Assembly: GCF_021699055.1 (NCBI RefSeq) | Contig: NZ_SSXC01000043.1 | Coordinates: forward strand, 1 to 34,700 | From: Blastococcus sp. MG754426 | GTDB taxonomy: Bacteria > Actinomycetota > Actinomycetes > Mycobacteriales > Geodermatophilaceae | Reading direction: 5' to 3' | Length of the DNA: 34,700 nucleotides | In this document: one piece after another, positions 5,943-26,224 of the stretch | Layout of the letters: the number at the start of each line of letters is the position of its first letter | Position numbering within the stretch: the stretch's first letter is position 1 | The notes under the pieces: model-generated | Database searches by the model: none | What the model was told of the DNA's origin: nothing | Seen by the model: only the letters and a program-made list of their open reading frames with translations | Program-made: the position numbers and the translations under genes

Positions 5943-6031
5943 ACGGACGCGTCTGCCCGCCGCCCGTCCCGCTGGCGACGCTGCTCCCGCAGCGGGCCGC
6001 GGGGTCCGGATCACGCGTGGAGGCGATGAGG

Positions 6032-7747
6032 GTGCAGGACTCCCAGGGAGCAGGCGGCGGGTGCCCGTTCAGCGGTGCCGGGCGGGAGCACGGGGTGGCC
6101 CGCCGCGGCTTCCTCGCCGGTGCGCTGGCGGTCGCCGTCGCACCCGTCGTCGGCGGGATCGGGGGTGCGCGCGCCGAGGTGGTCAGCACCGAACCGGTCA
6201 CCGACCCGACCGCCCCCGCGCCGGTGACCGAAGGCCCCGCGGAGACGGCCGCCCACGCCGTGGGCGACCCGCGGGGCGCCGAGGTCGCCGCGCGGATCGA
6301 CCGGAAGCTCGAGGCGCGCTTCGGCCTGATGTTCAAGGACCTGCCGCCCTTCGCCCCGACCGACGGCCTGCTGCTGTGGCTCGCGGCGAGCATGAACGAC
6401 GGCAAGGCGCCCCTGTCCGACGTCAAGGACAGCGACGTCGCCTTCGACAACCCGGGCATCCCGGCCGGCTACATCTACTTCGGTCAGTTCGTCGACCACG
6501 ACATGACGCTGGACAAGACGCCGCTGACCCACCGGCTGCAGGACCCGATGGCCATGAAGAACTACGACACCCCGTGGTTCGACCTCGGCAGCGTCTACGG
6601 CAAGGGCATCAAGGGCAGTCCCCAGCTCTACGACCCCGAGCGCCACGGCTACCTGCGGGTGTGGGAGCACGACGACCTGGTCGACCTGCCGCGCGACGAC
6701 GTCGGGGCCGCCTACCTGGGCGACCCGCGCAACGACGAGAACCTCATCGTCGCCCAGCTGCACACCGTCTTCATCCGGCTGCACAACAGCTTCATGGACC
6801 AGGGCATGACCTACGCCCAGGCCCGGCGGCAGACCCGGTGGCACTACCAGTGGCTCATCGTCAACGACTACCTGCCGCGCATCGTCGGCAAGCCGGTCGT
6901 GAGCAGCCTGATCAAGCGCGACGGCACGATCAAGTTCACCGGCACCCTCTACCAGCCCGAGCACCCCGATAACCCCTACATGCCGATCGAGTACTCGGGC
7001 GCCGCCTACCGTTTCGGGCACAGCATGATCCGCGCCGAGTACGAGATGCAGGACGGGCACACCGTGCCGATCTTCGGCGCCGACGGCTTCGAGGACCTGC
7101 GCGGGAACCGGCCGATCCCGGCCAACCTGTGGTGCGACTGGAACTACTTCTTCGACATCCCCGGGCTCGAGCCGCCGGACGACCGCAACATGGCCCGGCT
7201 CATCGACACCCAGATGTCCCTGCCGCTGTTCACCCTGCCCTCCACCGTCGTCGCGCCCACCAGCAAGGCGATCGTCGCCCTCGCCGAGCGCAACCTGCTG
7301 CGCGGCAAGCGGCTGGGCCTCCCCTGCGGCCAGGACGTCGCCACCGCGATGGGCGTCACGCCGCTCACGAACGCCGAGCTGGGCCTCAAGCAGCCGGGCT
7401 GGGGCGGCAAGGCCCCGCTCTGGTACTACGTGCTCAAGGAGGCCGAGCTGCTCGCCGGCGGACGTCGGCTCGGCCCGGTGGGCGGGCGGATCGTCGCCGA
7501 GACGATCCTCGGCATCATGGCCCTGGACCCCGAGTCCTACTTCAACCGCAAGCCCTCGTTCCAGTGGCAGGAGAAGAAGACCGTCGGCGACCTGATCCTC
7601 CTCGCCGGCGCCCTCGACCCGCGCTCGCGGATCGTGCAGCCCGAGGACGAGGTGGAGGAGACCGGCGCCCTCCCGCTGGAGCCCGACGAGGAGATCAACC
7701 CGGAGGCGACCTCCCCGGTCGACTCGGAGAACCTCCTCACCCCGTGA
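6032..7747 (+). CDS. Secreted animal-type haem peroxidase
   Basis: The protein has 571 residues. The N-terminus carries a twin-arginine-like signal (ARRGFLAGALAVAVAPVVGG). The body is a peroxidase/cyclooxygenase superfamily domain: FGQFVDHDMTLD with the expected distal His at residue 156, QLHTVFIRLHN, and AYRFGHSMIRAEY with the expected proximal haem His at residue 330. Such enzymes use hydrogen peroxide to oxidise halides or organic substrates, here outside the membrane. I chose GTG 6032 because GGAGG at 6019-6023 is 8 nt upstream; ATG 6026 and GTG 6017 are in frame but too close to it or upstream of it. The gene stands alone between an ABC operon and the polysaccharide locus. Natural substrate unknown. 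Confidence 0.88.
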   Translation: MQDSQGAGGGCPFSGAGREHGVARRGFLAGALAVAVAPVVGGIGGARAEVVSTEPVTDPTAPAPVTEGPAETAAHAVGDPRGAEVAARIDRKLEARFGLMFKDLPPFAPTDGLLLWLAASMNDGKAPLSDVKDSDVAFDNPGIPAGYIYFGQFVDHDMTLDKTPLTHRLQDPMAMKNYDTPWFDLGSVYGKGIKGSPQLYDPERHGYLRVWEHDDLVDLPRDDVGAAYLGDPRNDENLIVAQLHTVFIRLHNSFMDQGMTYAQARRQTRWHYQWLIVNDYLPRIVGKPVVSSLIKRDGTIKFTGTLYQPEHPDNPYMPIEYSGAAYRFGHSMIRAEYEMQDGHTVPIFGADGFEDLRGNRPIPANLWCDWNYFFDIPGLEPPDDRNMARLIDTQMSLPLFTLPSTVVAPTSKAIVALAERNLLRGKRLGLPCGQDVATAMGVTPLTNAELGLKQPGWGGKAPLWYYVLKEAELLAGGRRLGPVGGRIVAETILGIMALDPESYFNRKPSFQWQEKKTVGDLILLAGALDPRSRIVQPEDEVEETGALPLEPDEEINPEATSPVDSENLLTP

Positions 7748-7795: not shown

Positions 7796-8713
7796 TCAGC
7801 GGCGGCGCAGCGCCTGCGCCGCCGCCACCGCACCGCCGGCGAGCACCAGGCCGGCGACGACACCGACCAGCACGTTGCGCCGCAGCGATCCGTCCGCCCG
7901 CTCGTCCGGCAGCTCGGCCGCGCTGCTGACGTAGGCGAGCGCCTGCGGGTTCTCCATCACCCGCAGGTCGACGTCGAGGCTCGCGATCTGGGTGTTGAGC
8001 CGGCGCAGCTCCGTCTCCACGGGGTCGAGCTCCGAGCTCAACGTCCGCTGGATCGCCAGCCGCTGGTTGAGCAGCCGGGAGAGCTCGACGGGGTCGGTCT
8101 CCACGGCCACGGCCTCGTCCAGCGCGGCCACCGGCTGGAGGATCTCCTGCTGCCTCGCCTGCAGTGCGTCGCGGTCGCCGATCAGCAGGTCGCGCAGGGC
8201 CGCGGTCTCGGCGACGTCGCTCGCGTGACGCACCGCCACGTAGGTCTCCGCCCAGGTCTGCGCGGCGTCCTGAGCGGCTTCGGCAGAGCCGGCCTCGGCG
8301 ACGAAGACCAGCGCACTGGAGTCGGCGGTGCCGCGCACCTCGACCTCGGCCTCGTCGCCCGCGGCCTCGGCCGCGAGCCGCTGGAACTCGTCGCTCCCGA
8401 CGTAGACCAGCTCGGCGGCCGGTGAGCGGATCAGCGCACCGGCCGACGTGCCGCCGGTGCGCGGGAAGAGCTGGCGGCTGTCCTCGGTGCGGATCAGGAC
8501 CTCCGCGTCGGCCCGGTACACCGGGCCGAGCACGAACAGGGAGCCGACCGCCACCGCCAGCACGAGGAGGAAGGTGGTGAGCGCGAGCCACCAGTAGCGC
8601 CGCAGCGCGGCGAGGTACTCGGCCAGCCCGGAGCGCTCGGCCTCCGGCCGGTGGGTGCCGCCGGCGCGGTCCACGTTCGGGTGCGACGTTCCGTCAGGGG
8701 CGGTCTCCAGCAC
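7796..8713 (-). CDS. Wzz-like polysaccharide chain-length determinant
   Basis: The protein has 305 residues. A Wzz N-terminal domain opens with a cytoplasmic segment and a first helix (WWLALTTFLLVLAVAVGSLFVL, about residues 40-62), followed by VYRADAEVLIR. A long extracytoplasmic helical region follows, with coiled-coil character around residues 150-260. A second helix lies near the C-terminus (NVLVGVVAGLVLAGGAVAAA). It lacks a tyrosine-kinase domain, so it is the membrane half only. It probably sets the chain length of the polymer made by the neighbouring Wzy. The GTG start is preceded by TACCTT and 7 nt, suggesting its own leaderless transcript within the 48 bp after the upstream sulfotransferase gene. 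Confidence 0.82.
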   Translation of the reverse strand: MLETAPDGTSHPNVDRAGGTHRPEAERSGLAEYLAALRRYWWLALTTFLLVLAVAVGSLFVLGPVYRADAEVLIRTEDSRQLFPRTGGTSAGALIRSPAAELVYVGSDEFQRLAAEAAGDEAEVEVRGTADSSALVFVAEAGSAEAAQDAAQTWAETYVAVRHASDVAETAALRDLLIGDRDALQARQQEILQPVAALDEAVAVETDPVELSRLLNQRLAIQRTLSSELDPVETELRRLNTQIASLDVDLRVMENPQALAYVSSAAELPDERADGSLRRNVLVGVVAGLVLAGGAVAAAQALRRR

Positions 8714-8726
8714 GGCGGTGAAGGTA
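8714..8726 (-). promoter_or_regulatory. Predicted leaderless promoter of the Wzz-like gene
   Basis: On the minus strand a TACCTT box (8726-8721) is followed by exactly 7 nt and the GTG start at 8713. No Shine-Dalgarno sequence is present and no good -35 is seen. Confidence 0.45.
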
Positions 8727-8761
8727 CCGGCAACTCACGGGATCCTGTGGTCTCGGTCGCA

Positions 8762-9640
8762 TCACGATCGCCAGGCGCCGAGGGACCGGCCGAGCGCCGC
8801 GGCGAGGTCCTCGTTCGGTCCCGCGAAGCGTTCGTGCAGCGCGGCAGCGGTCGCGGGCGCCATGGGCGGGAAGGCCGCCGGCCCCTCGTTCAGCCGGTTG
8901 ACCAGGTGGCGGACGCGGTACAGCGTCCGGCTCGGCACCCGGGCGAGGAGCCGGCGTGCAGGGCTCCCGGGCCGTTGCGCGGCCAGGAAGGCCCGGGCGA
9001 ACGACGCCGACCGGGGGGACCGCCCCTCGTTGTGCCCTGCCGTCGCGTCCGGGACGTGCGGCGGGAGGCCGGCCAGGTCGAACAGCTCCGCGCAGATGCC
9101 CACGGCGTCCGCGCGCAGGTCGTCGGAGAGGTAGATGCGCAGCCGCTCCGGCGGCACCGTCTCCAGGAGCGCCCGCACGTGCGGCGCGTAGATGCCGTTC
9201 CCGACGTACTGCATGTCCCGGGCCCGCGGCGGTGCGCTCACCGCCCGGCCCGGCTCCCGCGCCAGGCCCTCCTCGAAGGTGGCCGCGTCCTCCCAGCCGC
9301 GCAGCCGGGCGTAGTGGAAGTGCGAGTACGCGCGCGGCACGGGCGCGCGGAGGACGGCGACCACGACTGCGGGCGTGGTGTCGGCGATGCGGCGCACCGC
9401 GGCCGGGTCGTACATGGCCATCGTGTGCTTGGCGAGCAGCGGCGCGTCCCCCACCGACGGCGGGAAGTACTTCTCGACCGCGTGCGCCCACCCCCGGGCG
9501 ACCTCCTCGCCCCGGCCGAAGAACGGCATCTCCCGGTGCACGTGGCTGCGCACGTCGGGGTGCTGGGCCAGGTAGTGGAACAGCGCCGTGGAGCCGCTCT
9601 TCGGCGCACCGACGATCATCAGCCTCGGGCCCGGACGCAC
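8762..9640 (-). CDS. PAPS-dependent sulfotransferase 1
   Basis: This 292-residue cytoplasmic sulfotransferase has the 5'-phosphosulfate loop APKSGST (residues 12-18) and the 3'-phosphate motif LRAPVPRAYSHF (97-108, with Arg98 and Ser106). Early His and Phe residues fit sulfotransferases that act on sugars or glycolipids. It should move sulfate from PAPS to a hydroxyl of a carbohydrate intermediate. The GTG start lies 7 nt after a TAGCAT box and has no ribosome site, so translation is probably leaderless. It heads a minus-strand pair with the Wzz-like gene and is divergent from the wzy-wzx operon, which places it in polysaccharide modification. Acceptor unknown. Confidence 0.85.
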   Translation of the reverse strand: MRPGPRLMIVGAPKSGSTALFHYLAQHPDVRSHVHREMPFFGRGEEVARGWAHAVEKYFPPSVGDAPLLAKHTMAMYDPAAVRRIADTTPAVVVAVLRAPVPRAYSHFHYARLRGWEDAATFEEGLAREPGRAVSAPPRARDMQYVGNGIYAPHVRALLETVPPERLRIYLSDDLRADAVGICAELFDLAGLPPHVPDATAGHNEGRSPRSASFARAFLAAQRPGSPARRLLARVPSRTLYRVRHLVNRLNEGPAAFPPMAPATAAALHERFAGPNEDLAAALGRSLGAWRS

Positions 9641-9653
9641 CCGCGGGATGCTA
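9641..9653 (-). promoter_or_regulatory. Predicted leaderless promoter of sulfotransferase 1
   Basis: On the minus strand TAGCAT (9653-9648) precedes the GTG start at 9640 by exactly 7 nt. The same hexamer and spacing recur before the sulfotransferase gene that starts at 16767. Confidence 0.55.
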
Positions 9654-9710
9654 GGGGAACCGGCCGGTGCGGCGGAACGTCCAGGGCTCCCGCAACCCGC
9701 TCCGCTGCGT

Positions 9711-9716
9711 TAGCCT
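9711..9716 (+). promoter_or_regulatory. Candidate -10 box for the wzy-wzx operon
   Basis: TAGCCT fits the TAGCNT pattern of other promoters in the window. It would give a leader of about 35 nt before a short coupled reading frame. No clear -35 is visible. Confidence 0.35.
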
Positions 9717-9757
9717 CGCCGACCAGCCGTCGCGGGACGGCGCAGGTCGGAGGTGCG

Positions 9758-9793
9758 GTGCGTCTCTCCCACGACGTGGTGGCGCGGTCGTGA
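9758..9793 (+). CDS. 11-codon leader reading frame coupled to the polymerase gene
   Basis: A GTG at 9758, preceded 4 nt away by GGAGG (9749-9753), opens a short frame encoding MRLSHDVVARS. Its TGA stop (9791-9793) overlaps the GTG start of the polymerase gene (9790-9792). The polymerase start itself has only a weak ribosome site. The short frame may therefore deliver ribosomes by coupling, or tune expression. It could also be chance in such GC-rich DNA. No homologue is known to me. Confidence 0.4.
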   Translation: MRLSHDVVARS

Positions 9794-11187
9794 TCGCGCC
9801 GCTGCTCGCCGTGGCCGCGTCCGCGGTCGTGTGGGCGCTGGTCTACCGCGCCCTCGTGCGCCACCCGCTCGACGCGATGGCGCTGGTCCTCTACTACCTG
9901 GCGCTGCAGCTGCTGTGGCGCCCGCTGCTGCTGGCCGCGGAGCTGGACACCCCCTTCCCCACCCTGCTGTTCCAGGACCGGGACACCGAGCTCCTCCTGC
10001 TGCGCGGCCAGGCGGTGGTCGTGCTGTTCCTGGTCGCCCTGTGGGCCGGCGCCCGGCTGACCACCCCGCTGGTCCGGCCGGTGTCGGTGCTCTTCCCGCA
10101 GCTGCGCGGTCCCCTGCCGCCGCGGGTGCTGGTCGTCCTCGCCGTCGTCCTGACCGCTGCCGCCGCGGCCGCCACCGTCGCGCTGTGGCTCCGGTACGGC
10201 GGCCCGTCCGGGCTGCTGCAGGCCTCGAAGGTGGACCGGTCCCTGGCCGACAGCCGCGCGCTGCGGACCCTTCCTCTGCTGGCCGCGCTGCTGGGCGTGG
10301 CGGCCTGGTTCTCGGTCCGCGGGGCCGGCCTGCAGCGCCTGCTGCTCCTCGCGCTCATCGCCCTCAACGGCTACCTGAGCTGGACGTGGGGCGCCCGCGA
10401 CGTGCCGGTGCTCTCGGCCGTCGCGCTGCTCGCCGGCGCGCTGATCTTCGGCCGGACCGGACGCCGCGCCGCCCGCCGCCCCGACGGGCAGTGGTTGCGC
10501 GACCCGCGCTGGCGCCTGCGCTTCCTGCTGGTGCCGGTGCTGGCCCTGGCGCTGGCCTTCACGCTCCGCGCCGCCCGCGACACGGTGCTCTGGGGCGACC
10601 TGGCCCCCACGATCGAGGGGCAGGGCACCGTCCGCCAGGTCGCGGTCGCCACGAACAACACGTTCTACGACGCCCTGCTCCTCTACCTCGACGACTGGCC
10701 GGACCGGTTCGACTTCACCGGCGGCGCCGACTTCGTCGAGGGCTCGGTCGCCGCGGTGCCCTCGGTGCTGGCCGGCCCGCAGGAACCCTTCGTCTCCCCC
10801 GCCGTGCAGCTGGCGCAGACCTACATCGACCGCAACAACGGCTTCCCGGCGACCCCGGTCGGCGACTGGTACGTGAACCTGGGCTACCCGGGCATCGTGC
10901 TCGGCGGTCTGCTCAGCGGCCTGGTCGCCCGGGCGGGTCAGTTCGCGTTCCGCCGGTTCCTGCGCGATCCGCTGGTCTGGGGCTTCAGCCTCGTGTTCAT
11001 GGTCCGGATCTTCCCCGGCGGCGTCTGGGCGACCTCGGCACCGAAGTGGGTGGCCATCGGCCTGCCGATCCTCGCGTTCACCGTGCTGGTCAACCTCTTC
11101 CTCCGGCGGTCCCGCGCCGACGACGAGGGAACGGCCCCGTCGGCAAGGGAGGGCGTCGCCGACGGGCGGGCGGTGGCCTCCCGGTGA
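9790..11187 (+). CDS. Wzy-like oligosaccharide repeat-unit polymerase
   Basis: This 465-residue integral membrane protein has about ten to twelve hydrophobic helices. A large extracytoplasmic segment in the C-terminal half (about residues 280-370, with FVSPAVQLAQTYIDRNNGFP and TPVGDWYVNLGYPGIVLGG) resembles O-antigen or exopolysaccharide repeat polymerases. The family is poorly conserved, so the call rests on topology, the GDWYVNLGYPG region and the flippase gene directly after it. GTG 9790 is the only sensible start in frame; the upstream extension contains no helix and looks non-coding. It would join lipid-linked repeat units on the outer face of the membrane. Its stop overlaps the next start (GTGA). 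Confidence 0.75.
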   Translation: MIAPLLAVAASAVVWALVYRALVRHPLDAMALVLYYLALQLLWRPLLLAAELDTPFPTLLFQDRDTELLLLRGQAVVVLFLVALWAGARLTTPLVRPVSVLFPQLRGPLPPRVLVVLAVVLTAAAAAATVALWLRYGGPSGLLQASKVDRSLADSRALRTLPLLAALLGVAAWFSVRGAGLQRLLLLALIALNGYLSWTWGARDVPVLSAVALLAGALIFGRTGRRAARRPDGQWLRDPRWRLRFLLVPVLALALAFTLRAARDTVLWGDLAPTIEGQGTVRQVAVATNNTFYDALLLYLDDWPDRFDFTGGADFVEGSVAAVPSVLAGPQEPFVSPAVQLAQTYIDRNNGFPATPVGDWYVNLGYPGIVLGGLLSGLVARAGQFAFRRFLRDPLVWGFSLVFMVRIFPGGVWATSAPKWVAIGLPILAFTVLVNLFLRRSRADDEGTAPSAREGVADGRAVASR

Positions 11188-12572
11188 CCACCCCGCTCAC
11201 CGGCGACCGGGGACGTGCGGGCGCACGCGGGTCCCTCCGCCGCGACACGGTCCTGGTCGTCGTCGGCCAGGTCGCCGCCGTCGTCAGCGGCCTGCTCGTC
11301 GCCCTGGTCGGGGCGCGTGTCCTGCCCACCGCCGAGTTCGGCGCCCTGTCGTGGGCCCTGAGCTGGCTGACGTTCCTCGCGGTCCTGGCCCAGTTCGGCC
11401 TCCCCCAGGTGGCCACCATCGCCGTGGCCCGGCAGGCCCGGCGCACCCACGCATCCCTGCTGCGGCGGCTCGTGCTCGCGCAGGCCGTCGGCGTCCTGGC
11501 CACGGCCGCGCTCTGGCAGTGGGCGGTGGGCCCGGCGGCGGTCGCGGCCGGCACCCCGGCGACGGCGTACCGGCCGCTGGTGCTCCTCGTGGCGCTGTGG
11601 CTGCCGGCCGCGGCCCTCTGCCCGGTGCTGGTCAACGTGCTCCGGGCGCGGAACCGCTTCGGCCTGGCCCTGGTGTTCGGCGAGCACGTCCGCCGGGTGG
11701 TGCTCGTGGTGGTCCTCCTGGCCGGCGCCGCCGGTGCCGCCGCGACCCTGTCGGCGCGGGCCGCGGTGGCGTGGACGGTGGCGGTCGAGACCGCGGTCGT
11801 CCTGCTCGCGCTGCTCCTCCTGGCCCGCGAGGTCGCGCCGGCCGGTCGGCACGCGGCCGGGCGCGCAGCGGACGACGGACCGGACGAAGGCACATCGGGG
11901 GACGGGCGGGACGGCGGCGGGTCACCCTGGCGGCTGCTGGGCACCGGTCGCGCCTTCGCCGTCGCCTCTCTCGCCTCGGTGACCCTGCCGCAGGCCGGGG
12001 TCTGGCTGCTCGCGGTGGTCGCCCCGGTCGAGGAGGTCGCGGTCTTCGCCGTGGCGGTGCGGATCGCCGTCCTGGTCGCCGTCCCGACGGCCGTCGGCGT
12101 GCGCACCCTCGCGCCGCGGGTGGCGGCGGCGTCGGCGGCCGACCGGCTGGGGGCGCTGGCGGAGCCGGTCCGCCGGTTCGCGGTGTGGTCGACGGCGGCG
12201 ACCGCCACGGCGGTGGTCCTGCTGGGCGCGACCGGCCCGGTGGTGCTCCCGGCCCTGTTCGGGCCGGAGTACGCGGCGGCCGTGGTCCCGGCCCTGGTGA
12301 TGAGCGCCGGCGTGCTGGTCAACGCCTGGACCGGCCCGTGCTCGGTCGTGCTCTCCCACGCCGGGCACCAGCGGGCCGTCGCGCTCAGCGCCCTGGCGGC
12401 GGCGCTGGCGTTCGCCGGGCTCGCCACCTGGTGGGGCGGGGCCTGGGGCGCCACCGGGGTCGCGGCGGCTGCGGCGGTGGCGATGAGCGCCCGCAACCTG
12501 CACCTCGCCCGCGCGGCGCACCGGGTCCTGGGGGTCCGCACGACCGCCCGCCCGCGCGGGGGCGGGTCGTGA
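11184..12572 (+). CDS. Wzx-like polysaccharide flippase (MOP superfamily)
   Basis: This 462-residue protein has about twelve to fourteen membrane helices. The N-terminal pattern LVVVGQVAAVVSGLLVALVG followed by ARVLPTAEFGALSWALSW is typical of polysaccharide flippases. It should move undecaprenyl-linked repeat units to the outer face for the polymerase encoded just upstream. A charged Asp/Gly-rich loop near residues 225-245 (DDGPDEGTSGDGRDGGG) separates the two helix bundles. Start and stop overlap with neighbouring genes by GTGA, so it belongs to a tightly coupled operon of polymerase, flippase, sulfotransferase and glycosyltransferase. Confidence 0.85.
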   Translation: MTTPLTGDRGRAGARGSLRRDTVLVVVGQVAAVVSGLLVALVGARVLPTAEFGALSWALSWLTFLAVLAQFGLPQVATIAVARQARRTHASLLRRLVLAQAVGVLATAALWQWAVGPAAVAAGTPATAYRPLVLLVALWLPAAALCPVLVNVLRARNRFGLALVFGEHVRRVVLVVVLLAGAAGAAATLSARAAVAWTVAVETAVVLLALLLLAREVAPAGRHAAGRAADDGPDEGTSGDGRDGGGSPWRLLGTGRAFAVASLASVTLPQAGVWLLAVVAPVEEVAVFAVAVRIAVLVAVPTAVGVRTLAPRVAAASAADRLGALAEPVRRFAVWSTAATATAVVLLGATGPVVLPALFGPEYAAAVVPALVMSAGVLVNAWTGPCSVVLSHAGHQRAVALSALAAALAFAGLATWWGGAWGATGVAAAAAVAMSARNLHLARAAHRVLGVRTTARPRGGGS

Positions 12573-13495
12573 CCGGCCCGCAGTTCCTCGTGATCGGCGC
12601 CGCGCGCTCGGGGACGACGGCGCTGTACCAGTACCTGGCCGAGCACCCCGGCCTGTTCCTCACCGAGCCGAAGGAACCGCACCACTTCGCGCTCGCCGGG
12701 ACGACGCCGGCGTTCACCGGCCCGGGCGACCGGCAGACGATCAACCGGCTCGCCGTCCCCGACCGGGGGGCCTACCTGCGGCTGTACCGGGACGCCCGCC
12801 CCGACCAGCTCCGCGGGGAGGCGTCGGTGTCGACGATGTACTACCCCGGAGCAGCGGCGCGCGTCCGGGAGATGGCTCCCGACGCCCGGCTCGTCGCCCT
12901 GCTGCGCGACCCGGTCGACCGGGCGTTGTCCGCCTACGGGTTCATGCGCACCCGGGGCTGGGAGCCGTGCGCCAGCTTCGAGGATGCGCTGGCCGACGAG
13001 CCGCGCCGGATCGCCGAGGGGTGGCACCACATCTGGCACTACGCCGCGATGAGCCGCTACGGCGAGCAGCTGCGCCGGGTGCTGGAGGTCTTCCCGCGCG
13101 AGCAGCTGCTGGTCCTGCGCCACGAGGACATGACGGCCGACCCCGATGCCGTGCTCGCCCGGGTCTACGCCCACCTCGGGGTGCCGCCGGTCCCCCGCAC
13201 CACCACCCCGGACCCGCACCGCTCCGGCGAGCCGCGCAGCCGGTTCATCGGCCGGGTGGTCAGCACCCACCACCCGCTGAAGAAGGTCGTCTCCCCGCTC
13301 CTGCCGACGTCGCTGCGCCGCGGGCTGCGCCGGCGGATCGTCGCCCGCAACATCGTGCGGATCGGCTACCGGCCGGAGACCCGGCGCGCGCTGGTGGCCG
13401 ACCTCGCCCCCGACCTCGACCTGCTCGAGCAGGTCACCGGCCTGGACGTGGCCGCATGGCGGTCGCCCGAGCGGCCGGCGGGCGGCGCCGGGTGA
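12569..13495 (+). CDS. PAPS-dependent sulfotransferase 2
   Basis: The protein has 308 residues. The PAPS loop ARSGTT lies at residues 12-17, and TEPKEPHHF follows at 32-40. The 3'-phosphate motif LRDPVDRALSAY spans 112-123 (Arg113, Ser121). FPREQLLVLRHEDM matches the usual late LRYEDL-type region, so the enzyme appears complete. It shares the EPKEPHxF region and overall build with the sulfotransferase at 15844-16767, suggesting related acceptors. It lies between flippase and glycosyltransferase genes with GTGA overlaps on both sides, so it is made together with the polymer machinery. It probably sulfates the repeat unit; acceptor unknown. Confidence 0.87.
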   Translation: MTGPQFLVIGAARSGTTALYQYLAEHPGLFLTEPKEPHHFALAGTTPAFTGPGDRQTINRLAVPDRGAYLRLYRDARPDQLRGEASVSTMYYPGAAARVREMAPDARLVALLRDPVDRALSAYGFMRTRGWEPCASFEDALADEPRRIAEGWHHIWHYAAMSRYGEQLRRVLEVFPREQLLVLRHEDMTADPDAVLARVYAHLGVPPVPRTTTPDPHRSGEPRSRFIGRVVSTHHPLKKVVSPLLPTSLRRGLRRRIVARNIVRIGYRPETRRALVADLAPDLDLLEQVTGLDVAAWRSPERPAGGAG

Positions 13496-14667
13496 CCGGC
13501 GGGGCCGGGCGCCTGTTCATGACCCTGCGGCTGCCCGACCGCACGGGTGCGGCCAAGATGGCGCTGGAGTTCGCCCGGGCGCTGCGCGCCGACGGCTTCG
13601 ACCTCACCCTCGTGCACGGCGCCGTCCCACGGCCGAGCATCCTCCCCGACGTCGAGGCCCTCGGCGTCACGACCGTGCTGGAGCCGCGGCTGGAGCGCCC
13701 CTGGGACCCCCGCCTCGTGCCCGCGCTCGCCGATCGGGTGCGCCGCGACAGCGGGCGCTGCGTGATCGGCGTGAACCAGCGGGACCGCGCGCCGGCCCTG
13801 CTCGCGGCCGCCCGCGCCGCGGTGCCGGGGGTGCTGATGGTCCAGAACCAGCACCACTTCTGGGGGCCGCGGCCGCTGGCGGCCCTGAAGCGGCGCGGCT
13901 ACCGGGCCGTCGTCGCCCGGTCGACCACGCTCGCGGTCTGCACCTCCGCCGTCGTGCAGGAGGAGATGACCGGCTTCGGGGTACCGCCCGGGCGCACCGT
14001 CGTCCTCCCCAACGGCATCGCCGTCCCGCCGCCGGTCCGGCTCGCCCCGGCCGAGCGCGCGCGGCTGCGGGCGGAGATGGGCGCCGGCGCCGACGACCTG
14101 CTGCTGGTCAACGTGGGCCGGCTGGACCCGCAGAAGGGCCAGGACGTCCTGCTGGCGGCCCTCGACGGCCTGCCCGCACCGGTGCACGTCGCGCTGGTGG
14201 GTTCGGCCGGGGACTCCGTCGCCGCCCGCCGGACCCGGGGCTACGCGTCCGCCCTGCACCGGCAGGTCCGCGACCTCGGCCTGGAGCGCGCCGTCACCTT
14301 CCTCGGCTGGCGGGACGACGTCGCCCGGTTGCTGGCCGCGGCCGACGGGTACGTGCACACCGCCCGGTGGGAGGGCCCCGCCCTGCCCCTCGCGGTCATG
14401 GAGGCGATGGCGGCCGGCTGCCCGACGGTGTTCACCGACTGCTCCGGCCGGCCGCCGGTGTTCGAGCCGGGCCGGGACGGGCTGCTGGCCGTCAGCGAGG
14501 ACCCGGCATCGGTCCGGGAGCGGATCGCGGAACTGGCGGCCCTCCCGCCGGCCGAGCGCGCGGCCATGGGCGCCGCGGGCGCGGCGCTGATCCGCGCGCA
14601 CTACCGGGTCGAGGACCTCGGCCGCACGTTCAGCCGGCTCGTCCGCGGAGTCCTCGACGGCGGCTGA
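13492..14667 (+). CDS. GT4-type glycosyltransferase (last gene of wzy operon)
   Basis: This 391-residue cytoplasmic GT-B enzyme starts at GTG 13492, overlapping the previous stop. The N-terminal Rossmann half carries LPDRTGAAKMALEFARAL. The C-terminal half has the classic GT4 features NVGRLDPQKGQDVLLAAL, FLGWRDDVARLLAAADGYVH and WEGPALPLAVMEAMAAG with the donor-binding E-x7-E. It should add a sugar from a nucleotide donor to the lipid-linked intermediate. Its last 38 bp overlap the tail of the convergent glycosyltransferase gene. Donor and acceptor cannot be told from sequence. Confidence 0.88.
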   Translation: MTGGAGRLFMTLRLPDRTGAAKMALEFARALRADGFDLTLVHGAVPRPSILPDVEALGVTTVLEPRLERPWDPRLVPALADRVRRDSGRCVIGVNQRDRAPALLAAARAAVPGVLMVQNQHHFWGPRPLAALKRRGYRAVVARSTTLAVCTSAVVQEEMTGFGVPPGRTVVLPNGIAVPPPVRLAPAERARLRAEMGAGADDLLLVNVGRLDPQKGQDVLLAALDGLPAPVHVALVGSAGDSVAARRTRGYASALHRQVRDLGLERAVTFLGWRDDVARLLAAADGYVHTARWEGPALPLAVMEAMAAGCPTVFTDCSGRPPVFEPGRDGLLAVSEDPASVRERIAELAALPPAERAAMGAAGAALIRAHYRVEDLGRTFSRLVRGVLDGG

Positions 14668-15847
14668 CCCGGTCGCGTCTCCGCGCCAGCAGCTCGTCGT
14701 AGAGCTCGACGTGCGCCTGCACCATCCGCTCCGGGGCGAAGTGCTCGACGAACCGCCGCCGTCCCGCCGCCCCGAGCCGGGCGGCGAGGTCCGGGTCGGT
14801 CAGCACGCGCACCAGGTCGCGGGCGAGCCCGTCCACGTCGCCCGCGGGCGACAGCAGCCCCGTCTCCCCGTGGACGACGACCTCGGGGATCCCCTCGACG
14901 CCGAAGCCGACCACCGGCCGGGCCGCCGCCATCGCCTCCAGGTTCACGATGCCGAACGCCTCCCAGCGCGACGGCAGCGCCAGCACGTCCACCGCCCGCA
15001 TGACGTCGGCGAGATCGTGCCGCCAGCCGGTGAAGCGGACGTGATCGGCGACCCCCAGCTCGCCGGCCAGCGCCTCGCACTCCCCCCGGCGCGTGCCGTC
15101 ACCGACCACGACGACGTGCGCCCGCGGGACCTTCGCCAGCACCGCGGGGACGGCGCGGATCAGCAGGTCGACACCCTTCTGGTCCTCGATCCGGCCGACC
15201 AGCGCGACCAGCGGCGCGTCGGGCGGCACCCCGAGCTCCCCCCGCAGACGAGCCCGGCCGGACGCGGTCCCGTCGCCCACGGCCATCCGGGCGGCGTACG
15301 GGATGACCGTGCAGTCCGCGCGCCGGAAGAGGCGGTTGCGCACGCCGACGTCGCGGATGAACGCCGAACCCGCGACGTAGTGCGTGGTGACCAGCCCGAG
15401 CACCCGCTCGACGAGCCGGTACAGCGAGCGCTTCGGCTGCCGCACCCCGGCGTGACCGGCATACGCGTGCAGCATGTGCAGCCGGACCGGCGTGCCGGCC
15501 GACCAGGCGGCCACCCGGCCCATCGCCCCCGCGACCGAGGTGTGCGTGTGGACGACGTCGTACCGGTGCCGGCGGAGGTGCGCCCGGATGCGCAGGAACT
15601 GGCGGAGGAGCTCCACCGGGCCGTCCGGCGTCGCCTGCTTGAAGTGGCCGCTGCCGTGCGACGGGGCGTAGTCCAGCACCGGCAGGCCGCTGCGGCCGAT
15701 CTCCTCGTCCAGCGGGCCACCGCCGGAGAGCGCGATCGCCACGTCGAACCGGTCCCGGGGCAGCAGGGTCGCCAGCTGCAGGAGGTGCTCGGCCGAGCCG
15801 CCGACGGTGATGCCGGTCAGCTGCAGCACCTTGACCCGGTCGCTCAC
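14630..15847 (-). CDS. GT4-type glycosyltransferase (minus-strand operon)
   Basis: The protein has 405 residues from GTG 15847, whose GTGA overlaps the stop of the upstream sulfotransferase. The N-terminal half shows VLQLTGITVGGSAEHLLQLA and DVVHTHTSVAGAMGR. The donor-binding half has ALVGRIEDQKGVDLLIRAV, VRFTGWRHDLADVMRAVDVL and LPSRWEAFGIVNLEAMAAAR with the E-x7-E motif. The layout is that of complete GT4 enzymes of polysaccharide loci. The Arg-rich C-terminal tail overlaps the convergent glycosyltransferase gene by 38 bp, so the two 3' ends are antisense to each other. Confidence 0.88.
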   Translation of the reverse strand: MSDRVKVLQLTGITVGGSAEHLLQLATLLPRDRFDVAIALSGGGPLDEEIGRSGLPVLDYAPSHGSGHFKQATPDGPVELLRQFLRIRAHLRRHRYDVVHTHTSVAGAMGRVAAWSAGTPVRLHMLHAYAGHAGVRQPKRSLYRLVERVLGLVTTHYVAGSAFIRDVGVRNRLFRRADCTVIPYAARMAVGDGTASGRARLRGELGVPPDAPLVALVGRIEDQKGVDLLIRAVPAVLAKVPRAHVVVVGDGTRRGECEALAGELGVADHVRFTGWRHDLADVMRAVDVLALPSRWEAFGIVNLEAMAAARPVVGFGVEGIPEVVVHGETGLLSPAGDVDGLARDLVRVLTDPDLAARLGAAGRRRFVEHFAPERMVQAHVELYDELLARRRDRVSRRRGLRGRAG

Positions 15848-16767
15848 GAGCGCCCCCTCACGTGCTCGGCGGTCGGCCACGCGGTCAGCCGGCGGCCGAG
15901 CAGCTCCTGCAGGGCTCCGACGTCGTCGGCGAAGGAGTCGGCCAGCCGGCTGCGGGTCGCCGGATCGATGCCCGCCGGGTCCAGGTTGGCCGAGCGGATC
16001 CGCTCCCGCTGCCGGTGCGGCACGGCCGCGGTGACCAGGCGCCGCAGCGACCGGGAGCGGCGCAGGGTGTTCAGCGCGGAGGTCACGGCGCGGCTGCGCG
16101 GCAGGCCGGAGGCGTTCACCCGGCGGGACGGGTCGATGTCGACGCCGGGGTCCACCTGCAGGAACTCGAGCACCCGCCGCAGCTGACCGGTCGGGTCCGC
16201 GGCGAACTCCTCCTGGACGACGACGAGCAGGCGGTCCCCGAACGCGGCGGCGAACGGCGCGAGCTGCCCGGCGTAACGGCTGAGCCCGGCGAGCTGCCAC
16301 ATGTGGCTCCACCCCGCCCGCGTGCGCTCCTCCTCGGCGGCCAGGCACTCCTCGAAGGTCCCGGCGTCGTAGCCCCGCGAGCGCAGGTACAGCCAGCTCG
16401 AGAAGGCCCGGTCGACCGGGTCCCGGAGCATGACCACCAGCCGGCACCCGGGCGCGCAGCACCGCTCGATGGCGGGGATCGCGGCGTCGGGGTGGGCCAG
16501 CGTGGTCACCGACCCCTCCCCGAGCCGCGCCTCGGCGCGTCCCTCGAACAGCGCCCGCCACGCCGCCTCACCGCGCACGGCGGTCCGGTTGACCAGGTCG
16601 TCGTCGCCGAGGCCGGTGAAGCGCGGGGCGCCGTCCGGGAAGGCGAGGAAGTGCGGCTCCTTCGGGGTGGACACGAAGACGTCCGGGTGCTCGCCCAGGA
16701 AGGAGGTGAGCGCGGTCGTCCCGCTCCGGGCTGCCCCGATGACCAGGAAGTTCGCGGCTGCCCCCAT
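15844..16767 (-). CDS. PAPS-dependent sulfotransferase 3
   Basis: The protein has 307 residues. The PAPS loop ARSGTT is at residues 13-18, TPKEPHFLAF at 34-43, and the 3'-phosphate motif LRDPVDRAFSSW at 114-125 (Arg115, Ser123). DRLLVVVQEEFAADPTGQLR matches the late family motif. It is similar in build to the sulfotransferase at 12569-13495. ATG 16767 is preceded by 7 nt and a TAGCAT box, so it is probably leaderless; the frame is open further upstream but reads through promoter DNA. It forms an operon with the following GT4 gene. A 20-bp element shared with the multicopper oxidase gene lies about 45 bp upstream of the start. It probably sulfates the same polymer. Confidence 0.88.
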   Translation of the reverse strand: MGAAANFLVIGAARSGTTALTSFLGEHPDVFVSTPKEPHFLAFPDGAPRFTGLGDDDLVNRTAVRGEAAWRALFEGRAEARLGEGSVTTLAHPDAAIPAIERCCAPGCRLVVMLRDPVDRAFSSWLYLRSRGYDAGTFEECLAAEEERTRAGWSHMWQLAGLSRYAGQLAPFAAAFGDRLLVVVQEEFAADPTGQLRRVLEFLQVDPGVDIDPSRRVNASGLPRSRAVTSALNTLRRSRSLRRLVTAAVPHRQRERIRSANLDPAGIDPATRSRLADSFADDVGALQELLGRRLTAWPTAEHVRGRS

Positions 16768-16780
16768 CGCCGGGATGCTA
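16768..16780 (-). promoter_or_regulatory. Predicted leaderless promoter of sulfotransferase 3
   Basis: On the minus strand TAGCAT (16780-16775) stands exactly 7 nt before ATG 16767. No ribosome site is present. Confidence 0.55.
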
Positions 16781-16812
16781 GCCGCGCGCGGCCCCGGGTG
16801 GCCCGGTTGCGC

Positions 16813-16832
16813 CACCCCACGATTTGGGGGGT
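16813..16832 (-). promoter_or_regulatory. Conserved 20-bp element, copy 1
   Basis: Read on the minus strand this is ACCCCCCAAATCGTGGGGTG. It matches 18 of 20 bases with 20411-20430 upstream of the multicopper oxidase gene, in the same orientation relative to the downstream gene. It is partly palindromic (CACCCC-N9-GGGGTG) and is centred about 56 bp upstream of the predicted start of transcription of sulfotransferase 3, a usual place for an activator. It could also serve the divergent sugar transferase gene. Confidence 0.6.
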
Positions 16833-16912
16833 GGGCGCCCCCCACGCGTGGACCTGTCCCCGGCACCACCACCCACCGAGTCTGTGCGCACGACGACGGA
16901 GACGGGGGCGCG

Positions 16913-18403
16913 ATGACCGAGGTCTCGTACCAGGAGGGGCGGGCCGGGCTGCCCGGTGTCCCGCGGCCGCGGTCGCACGTCGACGCCCGCACCGCGCCCT
17001 CGTGGCGGGGCGCAGCGGGGGACCTGCACCTGCCCGAGCGGGAGCTCCGCGACCGGACGGCGCCCGTCCGCGCCGGCCTGCTCGCCGTGGACGCCGCCGC
17101 ACTGGCCCTGCCGATGGCGTGGCTGGGCGGCGCCGGCGCCGTCTTCGCCGTCGTCGCGCTGCTGGTGCTGGCCGCCACCGGCGCCCACCACCCGCGGATC
17201 ACCCTCTCCGTCCTCGACGAGGCCCCCCGCCTCCTCCCCCGGCTGGGCGTGGCGCTGCTGCTCGTCGCGCCCGTCGCCTCCTCCGCCGTGGCGGGCGTGG
17301 CCGTCCACGCGGCGTGGGCGGTGCCGTGCCTGGTGGTGGGCCGCGGCCTGGGCTACGCGGTCGTGCGCGGCGCGCGCCGCCGCCGGGCCGTGGAGGACCC
17401 GACCCTCGTCGTGGGCGGAGGCCGGCTGGGCATGGAGCTGCTGGCGACGATGCGGGAGCACCCGGAGCTCGGCCTCCGCGGCATCGGCTACCTCAGCGAC
17501 GGCAGCCCCCTCGACGAGCGGGAGCCGCTCGGGCGCCTGGACGACCTGGACCTGGTCCTGGACGCCTACGGGGTGCGCAAGGTCGTCGTCGCCTACGGCC
17601 CCACCCGCGAGGCCGGACTGGTCGACCTGGTCCGCAGCGCCGCGCTGCGCGACATCGAGGTCTACGTCGTGCCGCGCTTCTTCGACGTCGGCATGGCGCC
17701 CGGCGGCCCCGACGTCGAGGACCTGTGGGGCATCCCCCTGCACCGGGTCCGCCGGGCCGCGCTGCGCCGCGGCGCCCGGCGGGTGAAGCGGCTCATCGAC
17801 GTCGCCGTCTCGGGTGCCGCGCTGGCCCTGCTCGCGCCGGTGCTGGGCCTGCTCGCCCTCGCGGTGCGCGTCAGCAGCCCCGGCCCGGTGCTGTTCCGGC
17901 AGCCGCGCACCGGGCAGGACGGCGCCCGGATCGAGATGCTCAAGTTCCGCACCCTGCGGGTCGCCGCGGAGGAGACGCCGGTGGCGGCCGGCTCGACGCG
18001 GAGCACCATGCACGCCCGGCAGGTCGACGTCGAGCAGCGGCAGACCCGCATCGGGACCGTGCTGCGCCGCACGAGCCTGGACGAGCTGCCCCAGCTGTGG
18101 AACATCCTGCGCGGCGACATGTCCCTGGTGGGCCCGCGGCCCGAGGAGTGCGCGTACGCCGCCCGCTTCGCCGACTCGGTGCACGGCTACCGCGACCGCC
18201 ACCGGCTGACCGTCGGCCTCACCGGCTGGGCGCAGGTCCACGGCCTGCGCGGGGACACCTCCATCGAGGAGCGCGCCCGGTTCGACAACGCCTACATCGA
18301 GCAGTGGTCGCTCTGGCGCGACGTCGTCATCCTGATCCGCACCGTGGCCGCCGTGCAGAGGCAGGCCTTCCGCACGGCGGTCCGCACGGTCGCCAACTGC
18401 TAG
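16913..18403 (+). CDS. Polyprenyl-phosphate sugar-1-phosphate transferase (initiating glycosyltransferase)
   Basis: The protein has 496 residues. The N-terminal half has about four membrane helices (residues 48-150) and a Rossmann-like segment (LVVGGGRLGMELLATM, near residue 165). After a fifth helix (IDVAVSGAALALLAPVLGLL) comes the bacterial sugar transferase catalytic domain: SPGPVLFRQPRTGQDG, LDELPQLWNILRGDMSLVGP with the conserved Asp390-Glu391, GPRPE (407-411) and LTGWAQVHGLRG. This enzyme starts polymer synthesis by placing a sugar-1-phosphate on undecaprenyl phosphate. ATG 16913 has a GGAG 11 nt upstream. The insertion between KFRTLR and RIGTVLRRTS (about residues 350-375) is normal for this subgroup. 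The gene is followed by the secreted beta-helix gene 53 bp later. Confidence 0.92.
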   Translation: MTEVSYQEGRAGLPGVPRPRSHVDARTAPSWRGAAGDLHLPERELRDRTAPVRAGLLAVDAAALALPMAWLGGAGAVFAVVALLVLAATGAHHPRITLSVLDEAPRLLPRLGVALLLVAPVASSAVAGVAVHAAWAVPCLVVGRGLGYAVVRGARRRRAVEDPTLVVGGGRLGMELLATMREHPELGLRGIGYLSDGSPLDEREPLGRLDDLDLVLDAYGVRKVVVAYGPTREAGLVDLVRSAALRDIEVYVVPRFFDVGMAPGGPDVEDLWGIPLHRVRRAALRRGARRVKRLIDVAVSGAALALLAPVLGLLALAVRVSSPGPVLFRQPRTGQDGARIEMLKFRTLRVAAEETPVAAGSTRSTMHARQVDVEQRQTRIGTVLRRTSLDELPQLWNILRGDMSLVGPRPEECAYAARFADSVHGYRDRHRLTVGLTGWAQVHGLRGDTSIEERARFDNAYIEQWSLWRDVVILIRTVAAVQRQAFRTAVRTVANC

Positions 18404-18456
18404 CCGCATCCGCGCGCGCCGGCGGCGGCCGGCGCACCGTCCGAGACGAGAGACCC

Positions 18457-20058
18457 ATGCGCCACCACCACCCCGACGCCGGGGCCCCCGGCACCACGGA
18501 CACCCCCGCCCGGCCGGCCGGTCCCTCCCTGAGCCGGCGAGGGCTCCTGCTGCTGGGCGGCGCCGGCCTGGCCTCCCCGCTGCTGGCCGGCCTCACCTCC
18601 TCCGGGTCGGCGCCGGCCGGCGCACCGGCGCTGGTCCCGCGCGGGGACGACGACGACGTCCTGGACGCGCGGGACTACGGCGCCGAGGGCGACGGCCGGG
18701 AGGACGACACGCGCGCCCTGCAGCGCCTGCTCGACGCCTCGGCGCGGCGCGGGCGCGTGGCCTACGTCCCCGCCGGCACCTACCGGTGCACGGCCGGGCT
18801 GCTGCTGCGCTCCGGCGTCGACCTGCACCTGGCCCGGCGTGCCCGGCTGGTGAAGGACTGGGCCGCGCCCCCCGGGATGACCGACGCCTTCCTGCGGAAC
18901 GCCGACTTCGCGGTGAAGTCGAACGAGGTGCGGATCACCGGGCCGGGAACGATCGGCGCGCGGGACCACGGCATGACCGGCGTGGTGCTCGCCCTCTACG
19001 GCGACGACGTGACGATCGCCGACATCACCATCGACACCTACGCCGGCGGGCAGGCGGTCATGTTCGCCGGCGACCGCGGCCGCATCGACGGGATCACCGT
19101 CCGCGGCAGCGCCCCGGAGTTCGGGACCGGCGGCATCAGGGTCATCGGCGGCGCCGACTTCCTCGGCACCGGCTGCCACGTCGAGTCCGGCGACGACTGC
19201 CTCCAGTTCGTGCCGATCGGCAACCCGGAGGCCGAGCCGACGCTCTACAACCAGAGCATCACCGGCGGCCGCTTCGTCGGGTGCACCGGCGCGAGCTCGG
19301 CCAGCCGCTTCATGGTCGCGCTGCTCGAGTTCACCGGCGGGGAGCCCGGCACGACCGACATGGACGCCTCGGTGGTGGACTGCTCGTTCCAGGACTGCCA
19401 CGGCTCGGCCGTCAACCGGGGCATCGTCGTCAAGAACACCCACAGCCGGGGGGCGATCGAGCGGCTCTCCTTCACCGACTGCACGATCGACATGTCCCAG
19501 GCCGCGGACGCCTCCACCCAGGAGATCCGGGTGCAGACCGACCCGGCGTCGCGGGGCGCGATCCGCGACGTGACCTTCACGCGCACCGACGTCATCGACG
19601 CCGTGAACAGCCCGGTGCGGGTGGGTGGCCCGAACATCAGCCGGCTGACCTTCGACGGCTGCACCTTCACCGCCCCGTCGGGGGCCGCACCGACGAGCGT
19701 CGTGGTCGACGGCACGGACCAGCCGCGCTTCCACGACTGCACCTTCGTCGGCGCCCCCGGCAAGCGCCTGCTGGTGGTCGGACCGGCGAACCCGGTGACC
19801 GCGCTGTCCGTGGAGGACTGCCGGTTCACCGACCTCGAGAGCCTCTGGGCCCTCGACCTGCTCGGCGTCGCCGGGGCCCGGGTGACCGGCTCGGTCTTCG
19901 AGGACACCGGCGCCGCCTCGACCGCGCGGGCGATCCGGGTGTCGCCCACCGCGACCGACGTCGTCATCGAGGGCAACGACTTCACCGGGATCAGCCACCT
20001 GGAGCCGGTGACCGACCGCGCGTCCGGCGCCGCTCTCGAGGGCAACACCGGCGCCTGA
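18457..20058 (+). CDS. Secreted right-handed beta-helix protein, pectate lyase/GH28-like
   Basis: The protein has 533 residues. A twin-arginine signal (LSRRGLLLLGGAGLASPLLAG, about residues 26-46) precedes DARDYGAEGDGREDDTRALQ, the start of a pectate-lyase-3/GH28-like fold. Repeating parallel-helix rungs follow (VTIADITID, GRIDGITVRGS, LTFDGCTF, LSVEDCRFTDL and others). VESGDDCLQF resembles the catalytic Asp pair of polygalacturonases. The gene lies directly after the initiating transferase gene, so a role in trimming, releasing or modifying the locus polymer outside the cell is likely. Lyase versus hydrolase activity cannot be settled. ATG 18457 has only a weak ribosome site (GAGAG). Confidence 0.82.
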   Translation: MRHHHPDAGAPGTTDTPARPAGPSLSRRGLLLLGGAGLASPLLAGLTSSGSAPAGAPALVPRGDDDDVLDARDYGAEGDGREDDTRALQRLLDASARRGRVAYVPAGTYRCTAGLLLRSGVDLHLARRARLVKDWAAPPGMTDAFLRNADFAVKSNEVRITGPGTIGARDHGMTGVVLALYGDDVTIADITIDTYAGGQAVMFAGDRGRIDGITVRGSAPEFGTGGIRVIGGADFLGTGCHVESGDDCLQFVPIGNPEAEPTLYNQSITGGRFVGCTGASSASRFMVALLEFTGGEPGTTDMDASVVDCSFQDCHGSAVNRGIVVKNTHSRGAIERLSFTDCTIDMSQAADASTQEIRVQTDPASRGAIRDVTFTRTDVIDAVNSPVRVGGPNISRLTFDGCTFTAPSGAAPTSVVVDGTDQPRFHDCTFVGAPGKRLLVVGPANPVTALSVEDCRFTDLESLWALDLLGVAGARVTGSVFEDTGAASTARAIRVSPTATDVVIEGNDFTGISHLEPVTDRASGAALEGNTGA

Positions 20059-25495: not shown

Positions 25496-26224
25496 TCACG
25501 ACGACCGGCGTCCCGAGTCGGTCGGGACGGCGCACCCGCAGCCGGACGGCCCGCGGCCGCCGGTGAGCTCCTCGACCGGCACGGCGGCGACTTGTGACCG
25601 GACGTGCCGGGGCGTCGGGCCGTCGACGACCTCGCGGGCGCGCCGCCCCGCCCCGTCGCGCAGCGGCCCGGTGTTGTCCGACTTCCAGTGCTCGACGTCC
25701 TTGACCAGCCCGCCGGCCGCGGCGGCCCGCCCGGTGACCATCTCGTCGGTGCACGGGAGGCCGAGGTCCGCGCAGAGCGCGGCCGGCGCCGCCTCCGCGA
25801 CGGCGCACAGGCTCGCCACCACGTCGACGCCGTCGCGCACGACGTGCACCACCTGCGCGCCCGGCACCAGCTGCTCGACCAGGTCCAGGGCGTAGAGGGT
25901 GGCCGGGGTCTTCTCCACCCACGTGTCCGCGCCCCGCTCGCGCGCGGCGGCGTCGGCCATCGCGACGAAGGCGGCGCCGTGGCCGCGCACCGTCGGGAGC
26001 ACGGGACGGCGCCGGCGGGTGCCCAGCCAGCCGGCGACGTCGTCGAGCCGCCGGCTCGTCCCGGCCGCGGCGAGCCCCACCGCCCGCCGGACCCCGCCCG
26101 GTGTGCGGAGCTCGTGGAAGACGTGCGTCTCGGGCAAGGAGTGGACCTGCGGGTGCGCCGCCAGGAACGACTGCAGCAGCGTGGTGCCCGACCGCGGGCA
26201 GCCCACCACGAAGACCCGCCGCAC
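25496..26224 (-). CDS. Sulfotransferase 4, apparently internally shortened
   Basis: The protein has 242 residues from GTG 26224, with GGGAGG well placed upstream. The PAPS loop GCPRSGTT (8-15) and the 3'-phosphate motif VVRDGVDVVASL (128-139, Arg130, Ser138) are present. The C-terminal DVEHWKSDNTGPLRDG (176-191) also matches family members. Between them, around residue 145-150, the part that normally has ARWNR and VRYEDL-type motifs is missing, about 55-60 residues. LCADLGLP follows directly, which normally comes after VRYEDLVADP. The frame is kept. It is therefore probably an in-frame deletion and the enzyme may be inactive. It is more distant from the three sulfotransferases of the polysaccharide locus. 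The acceptor could be a glycolipid. Confidence 0.75.
   Translation of the reverse strand: MRRVFVVGCPRSGTTLLQSFLAAHPQVHSLPETHVFHELRTPGGVRRAVGLAAAGTSRRLDDVAGWLGTRRRRPVLPTVRGHGAAFVAMADAAARERGADTWVEKTPATLYALDLVEQLVPGAQVVHVVRDGVDVVASLCAVAEAAPAALCADLGLPCTDEMVTGRAAAAGGLVKDVEHWKSDNTGPLRDGAGRRAREVVDGPTPRHVRSQVAAVPVEELTGGRGPSGCGCAVPTDSGRRSS

Follow-up and report, generated by a model that had tools for sequence, protein, structure and literature searches.

Most known sulfated polymers come from animals, algae and cyanobacteria; in actinobacteria they have only recently been proposed. In Synechocystis sp. PCC 6803, chemical analysis of synechan gave about two sulfates per eight sugars, and the xss cluster that makes it encodes two sulfotransferases (STs) and eight glycosyltransferases (GTs) (Maeda et al. 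2021; PMC8205485). In the actinomycete Actinoplanes missouriensis, the wps-1 cluster is predicted to produce a sulfated Wzx/Wzy-type exopolysaccharide (EPS); both of its ST genes and the adjacent sulfate adenylyltransferase/adenosine 5'-phosphosulfate (APS) kinase gene are needed for normal sporangia, and its authors describe the sulfated polysaccharide as still awaiting verification (Tezuka and Ohnishi 2026; PMC13390465). These two recent papers attribute bacterial sulfated polysaccharides only to cyanobacteria, the second adding its actinomycete prediction. Elsewhere, a sulfate content has been reported for a Streptomyces EPS (PMC9911575), and structures and gene clusters of sulfated polysaccharides have been published for marine Vibrio and Cobetia. 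Here we describe a ten-gene cassette on a contig of the soil and stone bacterium Blastococcus sp. MG754426 (the window; one whole contig of 34,700 bases from a 4.71-Mb genome in 224 contigs), in which three ST genes are interleaved with polysaccharide assembly genes. We interpret this cassette as a locus devoted to a Wzx/Wzy-type polysaccharide, extracellular or at the cell surface, that would be sulfated in the cytoplasm before it is flipped across the membrane, and we put the probability of this interpretation at roughly 80%.

The cassette resembles xss in that Wzx, Wzy, a polysaccharide co-polymerase (PCP), a priming transferase and STs are encoded in one cluster, although the cyanobacterial eight GTs and two STs compare with three sugar-adding enzymes and three STs in the window (PMC8205485). 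It resembles wps-1 in being an actinobacterial Wzx/Wzy cluster with STs, one of which is of the heparan-sulfate type in wps-1. However, wps-1 comprises GT2, ST, WecG (GT26), DUF4262, GH26, methyltransferase, Wzx, ST, kinase-like, O-antigen-ligase-type Wzy and long PCP genes (PMC13390465), whereas the window has a PF02397 priming transferase, two GT4 enzymes, a TIGR04370-like Wzy, three heparan-sulfate-type STs and a beta-helix protein. Thus, neither its gene content nor its gene order follows the wps-1 pattern. The window STs share family, motifs for 3'-phosphoadenosine 5'-phosphosulfate (PAPS) and an aligned glutamate with animal heparan-sulfate 3-O-sulfotransferase (3-OST) and NDST and with the bacterial structure 3rnl, whose title in the structure listing is simply "Sulfotransferase". 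Animal heparan-sulfate STs are Golgi membrane proteins that act on formed chains; those of the window are, judging by their sequences, soluble and cytoplasmic and are encoded together with Wzx and GT genes. The initial annotation held that sulfated polymers are little described in actinobacteria. This claim to novelty is weaker than stated, as the wps-1 prediction and the Streptomyces EPS, in what their sources report, precede it. An actinomycete sulfated EPS had already been predicted, and what is new is a differently organised cluster; among the matches listed from the open-licence literature, we found no paper on the window locus.

Layout of the cassette

Genes were modelled by codon-statistics gene calling and domains were assigned by Pfam and NCBIfam profile searches. 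All ten reading frames are open, and the cassette runs from the Wzz stop codon at 7796 to the beta-helix stop codon at 20058, exactly the ends given in the initial annotation. The features, with the two flanking genes last, are:

7796..8713, minus strand: Wzz-like PCP (PCP/Wzz); PF02706, 24.1 bits (cut-off 25.5); co-linear in five of five relatives
8762..9619, minus strand: ST1 sulfotransferase; PF13469/PF00685; GAPKSGST P-loop, REMPFF, RAPVPRAYS
9790..11187, plus strand: Wzy-like repeat-unit polymerase; weak TIGR04370 match, 17.2 bits (cut-off 40); hydrophobic segments
11184..12572, plus strand: Wzx flippase; PF01943, 31.7 bits (cut-off 28.2); GTGA overlaps with Wzy and ST2
12569..13495, plus strand: ST2 sulfotransferase; PF13469, 75.3 bits; GAARSGTT, KEPHHF, RDPVDRALS; GTGA on both sides
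13492..14667, plus strand: GT4a glycosyltransferase; PF13692/PF00534
14630..15847, minus strand: GT4b glycosyltransferase; PF00534, 141.8 bits
15844..16767, minus strand: ST3 sulfotransferase; PF13469, 58.9 bits; GAARSGTT, KEPHF, RDPVDRAFS; GTGA overlap with GT4b
16739..18403 (start uncertain, 16739 to 16913), plus strand: priming polyprenyl-phosphate hexose-1-phosphate transferase; TIGR03025, 344.7 bits (cut-off 295.55); PF02397, 200.5 bits
18457..20058, plus strand: right-handed beta-helix protein exported by the twin-arginine translocation (Tat) route; PF12708, 55.1 bits; PF13229, 28.2 bits; Tat motif SRRGLL
6026..7747, plus strand: flanking Tat-exported animal-type haem peroxidase; PF03098
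20519..22519, plus strand: flanking Tat-exported multicopper oxidase; PF07731/07732/00394

Most of the gene set named at the outset holds up in profile searches, namely the three STs, Wzx, the two GT4 enzymes, the priming transferase and the beta-helix protein, but Wzz and Wzy score below the curated cut-offs. The identities of these two rest on position, hydrophobic segments (seven to nine in Wzy by a crude count) and, for Wzy, a TIGR04370 match in all five homologues scanned (E values up to 1, the best being 6.9e-5); the profile search found no Pfam family for Wzy. No kinase domain is among the Pfam matches of the PCP. The motifs KFRT, DELPQ and VGPRP, which we take to be those of priming transferases, are present in this protein in six of six genomes, and the E-x7-E pattern of GT4 enzymes occurs in all six GT4b sequences and in none of the six of GT4a.

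Direct reading of the DNA places GTGA overlaps between Wzy and Wzx (11184-11187), Wzx and ST2 (12569-12572), ST2 and GT4a (13492-13495) and, on the minus strand, ST3 and GT4b (15847-15844). The suggestion that two of the STs are coupled in this way to flippase or GT genes is therefore correct for ST2, on both sides, and for ST3. Among the five relatives, and depending on the start taken, the 4-base overlap is kept between ST2 and GT4a in four and between ST3 and GT4b in three, while the Wzx/ST2 spacing is -1 to +3 bases in four, that of Blastococcus sp. KM273128 not being measurable.

Conservation and distribution

A scan of species genomes with the ST2 alignment, keyed on two short conserved peptides, identified 10 loci. 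Five of these are orthologous at 76-95% identity and belong to Blastococcus sp. KM273128, VKM Ac-2987 and CPCC 205250, Geodermatophilus sabuli and G. ruber; the other five, from two Nocardioidaceae, Geminicoccaceae, Gemmatimonadales and Rhodopirellula, are 33-44% identical. The ten-gene order, with ST1, ST2 and ST3, is kept in all five orthologous loci, G. sabuli having a second GT4a copy. The conserved wzy-wzx-sulfotransferase order that the initial annotation proposed to look for is thus found in each of the five relatives found to carry Wzy, always with the full set of STs. Gene order in the relatives was taken from tblastn tables (leaving out GT4 matches below 45% identity in the first table, and GT4 matches below 35% and all matches below 55% in L019-L023 in the second), as the gene caller had skipped ST2 in L015 and some Wzx, priming transferase and ST rows. 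Each of 12 genes compared between the window and KM273128 has a dN/dS of 0.10-0.30, the KM273128 Wzx being partial. This Wzx (L014 9590-10776) is matched in two frames, which reflects a frameshift or a sequencing error.

Within the family, Wzy was detected in five of 112 genomes, the window genome included, each with all three STs in place. The order-level sample of 397 genomes, for which the rows listed show four scored candidates per genome, yielded Wzy in the window genome, in two other Blastococcus and in one marginal case (18.9 bits); the two Geodermatophilus genomes possibly lie outside this sample. Some PF13469 protein was found in 71 of the 112 family genomes; thus, sulfotransferases are common in the family, whereas the cassette is not, and we rejected the idea that the cassette is a widespread family trait.

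Three heparan-sulfate-type sulfotransferases

The three cassette STs lie at or above the gathering scores of PF13469/PF00685, ST1 barely so (22.4 bits against 22 and 29.7 against 27). PF00685 and PF13469 each have four matches in the 4.71-Mb genome, all on the window contig and three of them within 8,006 bases. Since all four matches fall on one contig and five relatives share the gene order, the clustering goes beyond chance; a chance neighbourhood of sulfotransferases was rejected on account of that order. We compared 18 ST sequences (three STs from six genomes, with starts as taken). In all of them the P-loop begins at residue 4-11, too early for a signal peptide to precede it, and none of the 18 shows a hydrophobic segment by a crude count. 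The second PAPS motif, R-x-P-V-x-R-A-x-S, and the glutamate in [K/R]E[P/M] are likewise present in 18 of 18, and this glutamate is invariant in an alignment of 15 of them.

A profile of these 15 STs was searched against solved structures. The best match was bacterial 3rnl, over nearly the full length (E value 1.6e-80), followed by relatives of known acceptor, heparan-sulfate 3-O-sulfotransferase 3A1 (1.3e-23) and NDST1 (1.4e-16); ST1 alone also found 3rnl and 3-O-sulfotransferase 3A1 by phmmer. Both the profile and ST1 alone aligned the conserved glutamate with that of 3-O-sulfotransferase 3A1, which is presumably the catalytic base of 3-OST. Homology over most of the chain, both PAPS motifs and a glutamate at the catalytic position, which mark the heparan-sulfate type, are thus all found in the window STs. 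From these features, ST1-3 are predicted PAPS-dependent carbohydrate sulfotransferases related to heparan-sulfate STs.

The phylogenetic tree resolves ST1, ST2 and ST3 as three separate clades with support of 100/100, 97/99 and 100/100, and a recent duplication of one ST was rejected on this ground. Deeper joins in the tree carry a long-branch warning, and two Nocardioidaceae rows group with ST3 (89/91), perhaps falsely. Median dN/dS is 0.30 for ST1, 0.30 for ST2 and 0.29 for ST3, compared with 0.32 for Wzy, 0.23-0.25 for the GT4 enzymes and 0.50 for the beta-helix protein; these values come from our own Nei-Gojobori script, which used per gene only the best piece above 55% identity, with a partial read for KM273128 Wzx and five of six genomes for the multicopper oxidase. 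By these measures ST1-3 are orthologous groups under purifying selection.

The acceptor of an ST cannot be read from its sequence, and bacterial relatives have a wide range of acceptors; StaL, Teg12 and CurM are weak matches of the 15-ST profile. The STs might therefore act on a glycolipid, a sulfolipid or a small molecule, as in mycobacteria and glycopeptide producers, with the EPS genes as mere neighbours. We consider this quite improbable, because the ST2 and ST3 genes have overlaps with genes for Wzx and GT4 enzymes, because the three STs accompany one set of polymer genes in both genera, and because the best solved relatives of known acceptor are 3-OST and NDST rather than StaL (E value 3e-5).

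The fourth ST match on the contig, at 25499-26224 on the minus strand, lacks about 45 residues internally relative to a full-length relative (L038 8375-9175, 45% identity). Its sequence suggests that it is probably non-functional or mis-assembled.

Supply of sulfate and sugar precursors

Genes for PAPS synthesis, also singled out for checking in the initial annotation, are present in the genome. Locus L039 holds cysD, a partly read cysN and a CysQ-like gene together, and an APS kinase gene lies on another contig; CysD, CysN and APS kinase score over their cut-offs, the CysQ-like protein under its own. A separate cysH stands beside a gene that, judged by eye, resembles a sulfite reductase. Among the at most 30 candidates scored per genome, APS kinase was found in 108 of 112 family genomes, ST-free ones included. 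The presence of these genes is thus consistent with sulfation but not specific to it, and we rejected APS kinase as specific support.

All five relatives carry one more gene between the peroxidase and Wzz. The KM273128 copy is closest to solved UDP-glucuronate decarboxylases (E value 4e-101), although no NCBIfam model names the gene above its cut-off; G. sabuli has an additional nucleotide-sugar dehydrogenase. This suggests UDP-xylose as a precursor and xylose as a component of the repeat unit. The gene is absent from the window, where the peroxidase stops at 7747 and Wzz at 7796. On the one hand, this absence, together with the internal gap in the fourth ST and the KM273128 Wzx match that is split over two frames, could mean that the locus is decaying or silent in the window strain. 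On the other hand, the ten genes are open, the ST motifs are conserved, dN/dS between the window and KM273128 is low for all 12 genes, and a decarboxylase homologue with 71% identity is encoded elsewhere in the genome (G000:C160:18687-19616). We therefore regard decay as improbable.

A proposed pathway

The priming transferase would transfer the first sugar phosphate to undecaprenyl phosphate, and the two GT4 enzymes would extend the lipid-linked sugar. Three soluble heparan-sulfate-type STs would then use PAPS to sulfate the lipid-linked oligosaccharide in the cytoplasm, presumably at one acceptor position each. Wzx would flip the sulfated unit, Wzy would polymerise it, the PCP would set chain length, and the exported beta-helix protein would trim or modify the polymer outside the cell. 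PAPS is cytoplasmic, and since the STs have no signal, sulfation would be placed before Wzx. Given the early P-loop and the lack of a hydrophobic segment, sulfation of a lipid-linked intermediate is the natural reading. We infer that this repeat unit is the substrate of the STs, that they modify it at different positions before it is flipped, and that sulfate esters are present in the product. The earlier proposal that sulfation is built into repeat-unit assembly gains support from the conserved order, the PAPS genes and the signal-less STs.

The priming transferase and two GT4 enzymes suggest a three-sugar unit, to which genes elsewhere could add sugars. Three STs for three sugar-adding enzymes could mean up to about one sulfate per sugar; the same count fits synechan. 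One ST per sugar-adding enzyme, conserved in deposited strains such as G. ruber DSM 45317, makes direct testing feasible, and such a system, with its soluble STs, could allow densely sulfated polymers resembling heparin to be made by way of bacteria.

Several observations weigh against this pathway. The cassette is rare, being limited to five of 112 family genomes; the exact 4-base overlaps are not universal among the relatives; the Wzy and Wzz assignments fall below the cut-offs of the curated models; APS kinase is unspecific and is encoded on a different contig from the cassette; and the window strain lacks the cassette decarboxylase gene of its five relatives, its homologue lying elsewhere.

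Wzx/Wzy products may become attached to the wall or to proteins by ligation. Instead of a released exopolysaccharide, the cassette could thus make a sulfated polymer that is wall-bound or capsular, or a sulfated glycan on a glycoprotein; this would be compatible with the rest of the proposed pathway. The PCP without a kinase domain among its matches would fit this, and no ligase was recognised among the ten genes, the search for one having been confined to them. Against it, a beta-helix protein that is exported and enzyme-like would suit extracellular processing of the polymer, but this is not decisive. We see such an attached product as a credible possibility, if not the favoured one.

A more far-reaching version of the sulfated-polysaccharide proposal is that the cassette represents a second actinobacterial lineage independent of wps-1. 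Its repeat would have about three sugars, probably with xylose, and up to three sulfates added before flipping by three non-redundant heparan-sulfate-type STs. This would give a matrix of very high charge, resembling glycosaminoglycans and inherited together with the peroxidase and the multicopper oxidase, which might cross-link or protect it. Such strains are desert and stone bacteria. Taken as a whole, this version is tentative, and we rate it as rather unlikely to hold in full.

Other sulfation-linked loci in the family

Among the matches listed, at least 11 family genomes (G005, G019, G021, G023, G037, G060, G063, G071, G074, G104 and G111) have an APS kinase and an ST match no more than about 20 kb apart. 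Neighbourhoods were examined in six of these 11 (G005, G019, G021, G063, G104 and G111) and in G035, G046 and G105. The domain-checked locus L029 (G021) reads GT2, ST, WecG, ST, Wzx, ST, a 409-residue protein, Wzy_C and PCP, and it adjoins an APS kinase gene and genes with CysQ-, CysD- and CysN-type domains. Gene directions aside, this is the wps-1 order with one more ST, which stands in place of the DUF4262, GH26 and methyltransferase genes of wps-1. L030, L031 and L035 resemble L029 as far as the lengths of their genes, the starts and partial matches show. L030, too, is beside sulfate-activation genes. A fused CysN/C, CysD, STs and Wzx are found in L033/L034 (G063), and an APS kinase, STs and Wzy_C in L032 (G005). 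Given L029, L033/L034 and L032, the family has more than one case of predicted sulfation genes linked with polysaccharide genes, which speaks for the proposed pathway, and the window locus differs from these in architecture. KM273128 appears to have both kinds of locus (L014 and L030).

An ST2-like ST (40% identity) in L037, at 7807-8784, has GT4-like genes nearby, and no flippase- or polymerase-like membrane protein was called in the 16 kb around it. The single PF13469 matches in many other family genomes may be this same gene.

Beta-helix protein and oxidoreductase flanks

At 60% identity or more, the beta-helix protein is confined to the five family genomes, out of 112, that carry Wzy, while any match was obtained in 14 of 112. 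Its matches to solved structures are weak and include glucanases, alginate epimerases and iota-carrageenase; our guess is that it is possibly a polymer hydrolase, lyase or epimerase that trims or modifies the polymer.

The haem peroxidase adjoins the cassette in all five relatives. Within the genus, it is found at 90% identity or more only in the three cassette genomes, any match being seen in five of 23 genomes. The multicopper oxidase lies on the other side in four of five relatives; the G. sabuli stretch (L022) ends 383 bases past the second beta-helix match. This second match belongs to a tandem duplication of the beta-helix gene, which is seen in CPCC 205250 (L021 17776-19257) and in G. 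sabuli (L022 19081-20541), and in G. ruber a 34-residue remnant follows the beta-helix gene (L023 17720-17818).

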